Shown in pieces: positions 30,376 to 32,951 of a DNA stretch of 43,017 nucleotides. The DNA comes from an uncultured Granulicella sp. Its GTDB lineage: Bacteria > Acidobacteriota > Terriglobia > Terriglobales > Acidobacteriaceae. Each line of letters opens with the position of its first letter. Position 1 is the stretch's first letter. A program made the translations under genes and the position numbers. The stretch lies in the NCBI GenBank assembly GCA_937871785.1, contig CALMON010000008.1, positions 1-43,017 on the forward strand. Direction: 5' to 3'. Under the pieces are notes generated by a model. The model saw nothing but the letters and a program-made list of their open reading frames with translations. It had not been told where the DNA came from and made no database searches.

Positions 30376-30702
30376 CGTCGTTGATCCTTTGAGAGCAGAT
30401 GGAAGCAGATTCAGTTCATTGGACCGGGGCGTACACGACAAACCCACCCGGCTCCGTGGCCTTAGGTGGGTTGATTTGCAGCGGCGCTACTGTTTCGCTT
30501 GCCTATCGACACACCCAGAAGCGGCCACAGCAACAGCAGCGGCTGGCGGTGAAGATCGACTTGGGCGCGAAAGGCGTCATAGAAAGAGTCACCGCAGGAG
30601 CAGTTTGCGCGTCGTGCGGTATGTCTAAAGTACGCGCGGTAGGGCGGTGTGTCAATGTCGCGAGCCCGCCCGGCTGCGGAGACCCGTCCAGGAGAAAATT
30701 AC

Positions 30703-31644
30703 ATGGCGCCTCGAAATCTTGCGTATTCCATTCTCGATGTCTTTGCGGAGCGGCCGCTCGAAGGGAACCCCCTGGCCGTTTTCCACGACGCCCGCTCGCT
30801 AACCACGGCGAACATGCAGGCGCTGGCGCGCGAAACCAACCTGGCGGAAACGACGTTCGTGCTGCCTGCTGACGATCCGGAAGACGACCGGCGAGGGGTG
30901 CGCGTCCGTATCTTCACCACGCAGGAGGAGCTGCCCTTTGCCGGGCACCCGACACTCGGGACGGCGAGTTGGCTTCACGCCAATCACCCGGCGCTGCGCG
31001 GCGAGGAGGAGATTACCCTACAACTCAACGTGGGGCCCATCATCGTCCGGTTCGCCGCTGGAAATGCGTCGGGCCCGGGCGCCGGGTCAGGAGGGGAGTC
31101 CGGAGTGGTGGCGCGCATGAGGCAAAACGATCCGATCTTCGGTGTGGTCCATCCACGTGAAGCGGTGGCTGCCGCCCTTGGTCTGACTGCGGACGACCTC
31201 GATCCGGCGCACGCACCACAGACCGTATCCACGGGGCTGCCGTTCTGCATTGTTCCGTTGCGGTCGCTCGCGGTCGCGCGCCGGCTGCAGATCGCCCAGC
31301 GCGACGCGCAGCGCTACCTGGAGGCCTCGGACGCTAAGTTCTTCTACTGCATTGCGCCCGCCGCTACGCTTGGCCAGCCCGGCGAGCCGCAGTGGCATGC
31401 ACGCATGCAGTTTTACGGCGGCGAAGACCCCGCAACGGGCTCGGCCGCGGGCTGCTGTGCTGCCTATCTGGTGCAACATGGGCTGGCGGCATCCGCAGAG
31501 CCCGTGGTGCTTGAACAGGGTGTCGAAATGCTGCGGCCGAGCCGAATCACCGTGGAGTCCACACTTCAACAGGGCAAAGTGGAAAAAGTCTTTGTGGGTG
31601 GACGCACCATCCCTGTGGCAACGGGATCGTTTTTCCTGCCGTAA
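30703..31644 (+). CDS. PhzF family isomerase
   Basis: YSILDVFAERPLEGNPLAVF, ETNLAETTFVLP, RIFTTQEELPFAGHPTLGTA, MQFYGGEDPATGSAAGCCAAYLV. Confidence 0.94.
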   Translation: MAPRNLAYSILDVFAERPLEGNPLAVFHDARSLTTANMQALARETNLAETTFVLPADDPEDDRRGVRVRIFTTQEELPFAGHPTLGTASWLHANHPALRGEEEITLQLNVGPIIVRFAAGNASGPGAGSGGESGVVARMRQNDPIFGVVHPREAVAAALGLTADDLDPAHAPQTVSTGLPFCIVPLRSLAVARRLQIAQRDAQRYLEASDAKFFYCIAPAATLGQPGEPQWHARMQFYGGEDPATGSAAGCCAAYLVQHGLAASAEPVVLEQGVEMLRPSRITVESTLQQGKVEKVFVGGRTIPVATGSFFLP

Positions 31645-31682
31645 CCAGTTTGATTCCCACAGGCTCTCATGAGGAATCTCCA

Positions 31683-31862
31683 ATGTTAACGGCGGGTTAC
31701 GCGAGGGCAGTGGAACCGCGAGAGAAATCGGCATCGGCTTTCGCCTTTATTTCGCCGGTTGCCACGCGAGGTACGCCCGCCTATGGTCAGGAAGTCGTCA
31801 GCACGGGGCAACGCCCTGAGCAACGAACCGCTTTCGCCAGAGTTACAGACAACCTGAACTGA
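31683..31862 (+). CDS. possible 59 aa small ORF
   Basis: ATG preceded by GAGGAATCTCC; no family recognised; ends at the hairpin-rich tract. Confidence 0.25.
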   Translation: MLTAGYARAVEPREKSASAFAFISPVATRGTPAYGQEVVSTGQRPEQRTAFARVTDNLN

Positions 31863-31900
31863 GGAAGGCTGGTCCACGGCCTCCGCTGCCTCCCTGCGCG

Positions 31901-32300
31901 CCCGGGTAACCGGGGACAGGATGTGCAACCGGAGCTACCAGCTTCTTCGCTAAACCGCGGCCTGCCTGCGCCTGAACTGTTCGGGCGCAGGTTCACCGAG
32001 GGTCACTGCTCCCTTTGCGAGCGGACGGGAGAGCCTTGCCTCTTCGCGTTTTCCGCGCTCCTCCTCGCAAAGACGAGCACGTCTGCGTGCGTCCCGTGTT
32101 TGCGGGACGGCGCGGCAACGACCCCTCTGCGCCTTGAAAGCGCAGACAGACGCGGTTCGCTTCGCCTGTTTTCGGGCATCGGCGCCAAACGTGTGCTTGC
32201 ACGCGGACGCCCTTGCTCGGCCCAAAATGTCCTCGCTGCGCTTGCAGCGAGCCCAGCACACCCGGTCACACGACCCCAACACGATAGCCGGCACACCGGC
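31901..32300. other. hairpin-dense intergenic tract (about nine consecutive stem-loops), possible structured RNA or repeat element
   Basis: Stems read directly, e.g. CCCGG-GTAA-CCGGG (31901-31914), CCTGCGCC..GGCGCAGG (31965-31991), TCTGCGC-CTTGAAA-GCGCAGA (32126-32146), CTCGCTGC-GCTT-GCAGCGAG (32232-32251), GCCGG-CACA-CCGGC (32287-32300). Confidence 0.6.
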
Positions 32301-32317
32301 ACGGAGAACGATTCGAC

Positions 32318-32755
32318 ATGCGCCCTCGTAAAACCATCCTTTGCGTCGAAGACAACGAACAGATCCTTTCGGTTCGCAAGTTTCTGCTCGAAACCCGCGG
32401 CTATCGCGTGCTCGCCTTTGCGACCGCCGCGGAAGCTCTCGAGGTTCTGCAAACGTCGCTTCCGGGATCGATCGATCTGCTGCTTTCGGACGTGATCATG
32501 CCGCAAATGGACGGCAACGAGCTGGTGCGGCGTGCCAAGCAACTGCATCCGTGCCTACCGGCGCTGCTGGTTTCCGGCACCGTGACGAGCTTCGACCGCG
32601 CCGCCGCGGCAGACGCCTTTCTGCCCAAGGGCGCGTGCACGCCGGTCGAACTGCTCGACCGCATCCGCATTCTGGTGGCTCGCAAACGCGGACCCAAGAA
32701 GCAGCCGACGGCGGTGCAACCGGAAATAGCGCAGGCGCTGCAGCAGGCTAGCTGA
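32318..32755 (+). CDS. stand-alone response regulator receiver protein
   Basis: ILCVEDNEQILSVRKFLLETRGYRV, LLLSDVIMPQMDGNELVRRAK, LLVSGTV, FLPKGACTPVELLDRI; no output domain. Confidence 0.93.
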   Translation: MRPRKTILCVEDNEQILSVRKFLLETRGYRVLAFATAAEALEVLQTSLPGSIDLLLSDVIMPQMDGNELVRRAKQLHPCLPALLVSGTVTSFDRAAAADAFLPKGACTPVELLDRIRILVARKRGPKKQPTAVQPEIAQALQQAS

Positions 32756-32951
32756 GCTATCCGTAAGGAGTTGTAAGTTGTACATCGTGAGTTCGCTGCC
32801 GGCTTCCTCCTGCAGCTCCGGTGGACTTCGATGTCAGGCCTGAAGGCTCGCCTCATGACCCGGAACCGCCGTATACCGGACTAAAACTGAGAATTGAGAA
32901 CTGGAAATTTGCCCGTACGTGCTCGCAAGACACCCTATAGCTCGGATCGCC

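Follow-up and report, generated by a model that had tools for sequence, protein, structure and literature searches.

A long structured RNA in the Acidobacteriaceae, probably a cis-regulatory 5' leader of a stand-alone receiver gene

Introduction

What is encoded in the long, GC-rich intergenic tract in front of a stand-alone receiver gene in an uncultured Granulicella sp.? The tract (positions 31863-32310) lies in a 43,017-nucleotide stretch of DNA, here called the window (GenBank assembly GCA_937871785.1, the whole of contig CALMON010000008.1), and is flanked by a PhzF-family gene (30649-31644, identified with Pfam) and the receiver gene. An initial annotation described it as a tandem array of stem-loops and offered three readings: a structured noncoding RNA, a long 5' leader belonging to the receiver gene, or a lineage-specific palindromic element. 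Acidobacteria rank among the commonest soil bacteria. In the open literature searched, regulatory RNAs of Acidobacteria were almost absent and an Acidobacteriaceae leader of this kind was undescribed.

Results

The gene following the tract (32318-32755, plus strand) encodes a CheY-like protein of 145 amino acids. A Pfam search found PF00072 (E = 4.6e-15) and nothing else, in agreement with its earlier description as a stand-alone receiver, and direct inspection revealed that both the Asp (LLLSDV) and the Lys (LPKGA) are conserved. By this protein, the nearest named relatives are Granulicella sapmiensis and G. mallensis, and a related receiver was present in 151 of 151 family genomes examined. 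recG follows downstream of the receiver gene in convergent orientation.

When 1.35 kb around the tract (31600-32950) was scanned, the sole promoter-like site was a predicted sigma70-like promoter, TTGCCA-17 nt-TATGGT, at 31759-31787 on the plus strand (-35 at 31759, -10 at 31782). With transcription starting some 6 to 7 nt past the -10 hexamer, the predicted leader has about 524 nt (31794-32317, plus strand; z = -4.47 on the plus and -3.10 on the minus strand). The feature thus exceeds the tract as annotated, beginning at about 31794 and reaching the receiver ATG at 32318 without a terminator.

All ten inverted repeats listed in the initial annotation are present, and nine of them pair with probabilities of 0.55 to 1.00 in the full-leader ensemble. 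The tenth, CACG/CGTG at 32078-32089, has a pair probability of 0.00 because its bases are used by a longer stem (32081-32097/32102-32116). The picture of a simple tandem array had to be given up: the small hairpins nest within larger, comparatively supported stems, namely 31861-31873/31937-31948 and a long-range stem described below. The number of hairpins was also discarded as evidence; counting nonoverlapping, perfect hairpins with a stem of at least 5 and a loop of 3 to 10, the tract has 6, dinucleotide shuffles have 3.9 ± 1.6, and 80 of 500 shuffles equaled the tract. The minimum free energy (MFE) of the tract, by comparison with shuffles, was indeed low: -215.5 kcal/mol on the plus strand, with a z of -4.22 and none of 100 shuffles as good (z = -2.88 on the minus strand). 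The stem-loops are real and the overall fold is beyond chance, whereas the count of short hairpins is ordinary for GC-rich DNA.

Single folds, alignments and the fold of the window gave a common general layout. Immediately 3' of the promoter stands a hairpin (31801-31821, plus strand; pair probability 0.93), whose equivalent was predicted in most of the orthologues inspected. It is followed by a largely single-stranded segment carrying CTTTCGCC and (T)GACAACTTGAGTTGAGAG, and then by Domain I and Domain II. In the window, Domain I (31861-31948, plus strand) is closed by a stem of 12 bp, GAGGAAGGCTGGT/ACCAGCTTCTTC (31861-31873/31937-31948; probability 0.88); orthologues close it with stems of the GAGAG/CTCTC type. 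Domain II (31953-32159, plus strand) is framed by the long-range stem, in which AACCGCG.CCTG (about 31954-31966) pairs with CAGA.CGCGGTT (about 32146-32158). The 3' strand of this stem has two rival partners in the window: the pairing with 31954-31966 appears in the fold of the tract, and addition of the 5' part shifts the 3' strand to 31824-31831 (P = 0.98). Examples of Domain II closing stems are CCGCATCCTGGTCC/GGACCAGGTGCGG and CCCCGCGGTCCGGC/GCCGGACCACGGGG. A long-range stem at a similar position recurred independently in the MFE folds of many unaligned leaders. Inside it, the order of elements is CACTG-hairpin-GAGCGGACAGGAGAG-CTTTGT-CTCT, and the signature core of the window, CACTGCTCCC..GAGCGGACGGGAGAGCCTTGCCTCTTC (31991-32045, plus strand), was matched by a covariance model (R1; see below). 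Another hairpin region lies 3' of Domain II, and a final hairpin ends a few bases short of the ribosome-binding site. A probable Shine-Dalgarno sequence, GGAG at 32303-32306 (plus strand), was found by direct inspection 11 nt 5' of the ATG and is predicted to be largely unpaired (0.67).

Upstream DNA was gathered for about 140 best receiver matches. It contained 117 distinct Acidobacteriaceae leaders at the orthologous locus, hereafter the long-leader group, with a median length of 505 nt; predicted lengths in the family range from about 350 to 650 nt. Throughout this group the promoter is kept at the equivalent position upstream of the orthologous gene, with the 17-bp spacing preserved and the sequence TTTACA or TTGCNN-17-TACTCT, and wherever the leader was found it stood immediately 5' of the same gene. 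A DNA similarity search, suggested as a way to trace the tract in relatives, barely detects these orthologous leaders because their sequence diverges very fast. Even the Granulicella leaders align poorly among themselves. Long invariant blocks are few, and both the positions and the sequences of stems shift fast while total stability is maintained. What is conserved are words, CTTTCGCCTG, CTGACAA, TGAGTTGAGAGA and GGCAACCTGC, together with the hairpin pair CACTG..GAGCGGACAGGAGAG; several of these are shared between genera. One Edaphobacter-clade leader (L020, 1197-1397) carries the signature hairpin twice, as AGGAGAGCTTTGCCTCTT and GGGAGAGCTTTGTCTCTT, nested within a single long stem, which suggests growth of the leader through local duplication. 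One genome of low completeness (G053) has two leader-receiver loci of different types on two contigs (L012 and L117), reflecting either a paralogue or contamination.

A short word, TTCGC, is found on both sides of the promoter. It forms a direct repeat with a distance of about 11 bp just 5' of the -35 element (31739-31758 in the window), and among the 117 promoters of the long-leader group it occurs at -41 in 91 and at -30 in 50. By their sequence, these repeats look like a transcription factor operator on one helix face. Inside the leader, the word is seen again as CTTTCGCC (31831-31838, plus strand); TTTCGC was present at +15 to +140 from the -10 element in 96/117 leaders versus 8 in an adjacent window of equal size. 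Since TTCGC recurs 5' of the -35 element, CTTTCGCC may be a DNA operator instead of an RNA element. A role of CTTTCGCC as an anti-Shine-Dalgarno sequence that closes the leader was hinted at by two alignments, but it was not general: pairing of the 5' element with the ribosome-binding site averaged 0.13 across leaders, with the Shine-Dalgarno sequence about 43% unpaired.

The same gene occurs with a short leader in a sister clade (18 rows, support 100/97). There, the promoter reads TTTACA-17-TANNAT and the leaders have 69 to 228 nt without excess structure (z near 0). Where inspected, a PhzF-like coding sequence lies 5' of the receiver in this clade (L053 to L074). The receiver tree requires four switches between long and short leaders, far below the 20.8 obtained when labels are shuffled; its resolution is poor and its root uncertain, and the direction of change cannot be read from it.

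If the fold matters as RNA, the two strands should differ, because G-U pairs have no counterpart on the opposite strand. Most of 49 leaders tested folded better than shuffles, with a mean MFE z of -3.41 on the plus strand versus -2.51 on the minus strand, and z was lower on the plus strand in 37/49 (Wilcoxon P = 1.5e-5). With G-U pairs being lost on the reverse complement, this difference points to a fold at the level of RNA. RNAalifold, compared with column shuffles, gave z values of -14.5 for 22 Edaphobacter-clade leaders, -10.8 for 20 leaders of other genera and -9.3 for 10 Granulicella leaders, and the signal was stronger on the plus strand in all three alignments. In an alignment-free swap test, pairing of the 5' part of a leader was better with the 3' part of the same leader than with foreign 3' parts from nine other species (P = 4.7e-5, 7.9e-4 and 3.2e-7 at three cut points).

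Covariation gave the same picture. In a plain alignment (A5), the covariation score of the core stems was reached by 0 of 500 shuffles. A model-fitted alignment of 34 sequences had compensatory changes at 16 of 34 core pairs (32 cells versus 8.0 in shuffles; 0 of 500 as high), with the reservation that such an alignment is biased towards the model and that neither shuffle control fully removes relatedness. The Edaphobacter counterpart of the long-range stem of Domain II had compensatory changes at 8/13 pairs. Moreover, R1, a covariance model trained on Edaphobacter-clade leaders only, matched the core of the window on the right strand and in the right place, with E values of 0.0003 in 43 kb and 0.0017 in 240 kb, and detected cores in other genera too. 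As judged from these comparisons, selection acts on the predicted fold at the level of RNA, and we consider it highly probable that the tract is a conserved structured RNA leader. None of the three observations named at the outset as contrary to a structured RNA was made: covariation was found, the MFE was below that of shuffles, and there was no homology to a decayed gene.

Several known modes of control were considered. Attenuation by an intrinsic terminator was rejected, because the predictions were scattered (28/119) and their position was not constant. A CsrA/RsmA sponge was rejected too, given the absence of a CsrA gene from the genome of the window and from 8 relatives and the frequency of GGA in loops (0.38 per leader versus 0.63 for control trinucleotides). 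A two-state switch of Domain II, of the kind expected in a riboswitch or bistable attenuator, was suggested by eye in Edaphobacter and lacked support across the set, where 10/91 leaders reached P < 0.05 and the mean z was -0.34. In Edaphobacter, the alternative helix A-B was paired in 96% of cells and its covariation was not above shuffles. In columns 11-17, 29-36 and 169-175 of alignment A5 (Edaphobacter), the strand GGTCCGGC has two potential partners, GCCGGAC close by and GCCGGACC farther away; both pairings are maintained, and covariation was observed with the distant GCCGGACC only.

A search with Rfam 15, as proposed in the initial annotation, found two tRNAs in the whole window and nothing else. 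Up to E = 10, the leader region had two chance-level matches on the minus strand, far under gathering, and the leader-bearing loci of 23 relatives yielded, up to E = 1, only tRNAs and one chance match outside the leader.

Discussion

Our favored reading, which we regard as probable, is that the tract serves the receiver gene as a long, multidomain, structured 5' untranslated leader, which has its own predicted promoter and tunes the receiver. The sequence has what a cis-acting leader should have: a predicted promoter of its own, continuity with the gene, no intervening gene or terminator, and a covarying fold. The predicted leader is noncoding, single copy, restricted to one locus and specific to a large section of the Acidobacteriaceae. 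Among the three readings offered at the start, the long 5' leader is now well supported, by a conserved promoter at its head, the lack of a consistent terminator and the covarying fold; the palindromic element is disfavored.

A DNA-level palindromic element, REP-like or otherwise mobile, would account for an intergenic tract full of GC-rich inverted repeats. However, the tract was found at a single place in the genome, which confirms the view of the initial annotation that it differs from simple repeats, and R1 had significant matches at only one locus per genome over 31 genomes. Locus and promoter were constant in every genome and the plus strand folded better in 37 of 49 leaders, all of which makes such an element very improbable. 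We hold a decayed or unrecognized protein-coding gene to be more improbable still. There are open stretches of more than 100 codons in several frames, as expected for GC-rich DNA, but the leader had no Pfam match and its gap lengths were not codon-like (multiples of three in just 574 of 4,604 pairwise cases), in line with the earlier view that no plausible protein is encoded, and the compensatory base changes also speak against coding.

Two other explanations accept the RNA and dispute its role. It could be a separate, trans-acting structured RNA, or one excised from the transcript, with the receiver as a mere neighbor or a partner; its size and fold resemble those of large bacterial noncoding RNAs, it is strongly structured and present in one copy, and the predicted Shine-Dalgarno sequence is rather accessible, with no consistent control by the fold. 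We nevertheless consider this unlikely: neither a terminator nor a 3' end is conserved ahead of the gene, the same gene follows immediately wherever the RNA occurs, and the final hairpin abuts the ribosome-binding site. Somewhat less likely again is a passive stabilizer or spacer that shields a long untranslated leader from RNases or Rho, with stability alone being selected and no switch. Fast turnover of sequence and stems at preserved stability, with few long invariant blocks, would fit this, but the conserved words and the CACTG..GAGCGGACAGGAGAG hairpin pair exceed what stability alone needs.

If the RNA is a cis-acting leader, as we think probable, the nascent transcript would fold into Domain I, Domain II with its long-range stem around the conserved hairpin pair, and the 3' hairpins, which would end just short of the ribosome-binding site. 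A change of fold, or binding of a protein or small molecule, could then tune the amount of receiver protein once transcription has begun, acting through translation or the survival of the transcript and not through an intrinsic terminator. Action in cis on the receiver is itself graded as probable here; we infer regulation of the receiver from the position of the leader only. More tentatively, and with rather less than even confidence, we propose a new large class of Acidobacteriaceae RNA in which a leader of 350 to 650 nt senses a signal and controls synthesis of the stand-alone receiver.

How does this RNA compare with known ones? The atoC motif (RF01733) is a cis-regulatory candidate of delta-Proteobacteria whose status as a switch is marked "?" (Weinberg et al. 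2010, PMC2864571). The present leader is likewise a cis-regulatory candidate, but the Rfam model of the atoC motif fails to match it or its orthologues. The name of that motif presumably points to a response-regulator gene. Acido-1 (RF01686) and Acido-Lenti-1 (RF01687) are structured RNA candidates from Acidobacteria that were marked as not cis-regulatory (PMC2864571); neither model matched at E ≤ 1, be it in the window or in the 23 loci of relatives that carry a leader. OLE, GOLLD and ROOL are large ornate bacterial RNAs, long and elaborately folded (PMC12286853). The present RNA is long and elaborately folded as well; unlike them, it apparently precedes the coding region within an mRNA, and it has a fast-diverging sequence. 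The function of OLE, GOLLD and ROOL is uncertain. These families are, we assume, included in Rfam, in which case they have no match here. mgtA and cspA have long untranslated leaders, and the fold of these leaders controls how the gene behind them is expressed. Like these, the present leader is long and structured, but the gene is a different one, no known model matches and sensing is a proposal. Judged from sequence, it is most likely a new cis-regulatory leader RNA.

A conserved, structured leader of about 500 nt in front of one signaling gene in about a hundred genomes would amount to a new RNA family in an understudied phylum. Fast turnover of the sequence with the fold being kept would explain why conservation-based searches missed it. 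The sister clade with its short leaders is the natural comparison for expression studies. If the reading as a cis-acting leader is true, it would be a rare, strong case of RNA-level control over a single-domain response regulator, and if the leader also senses a signal, the output of a two-component system would be set by RNA besides phosphorylation.
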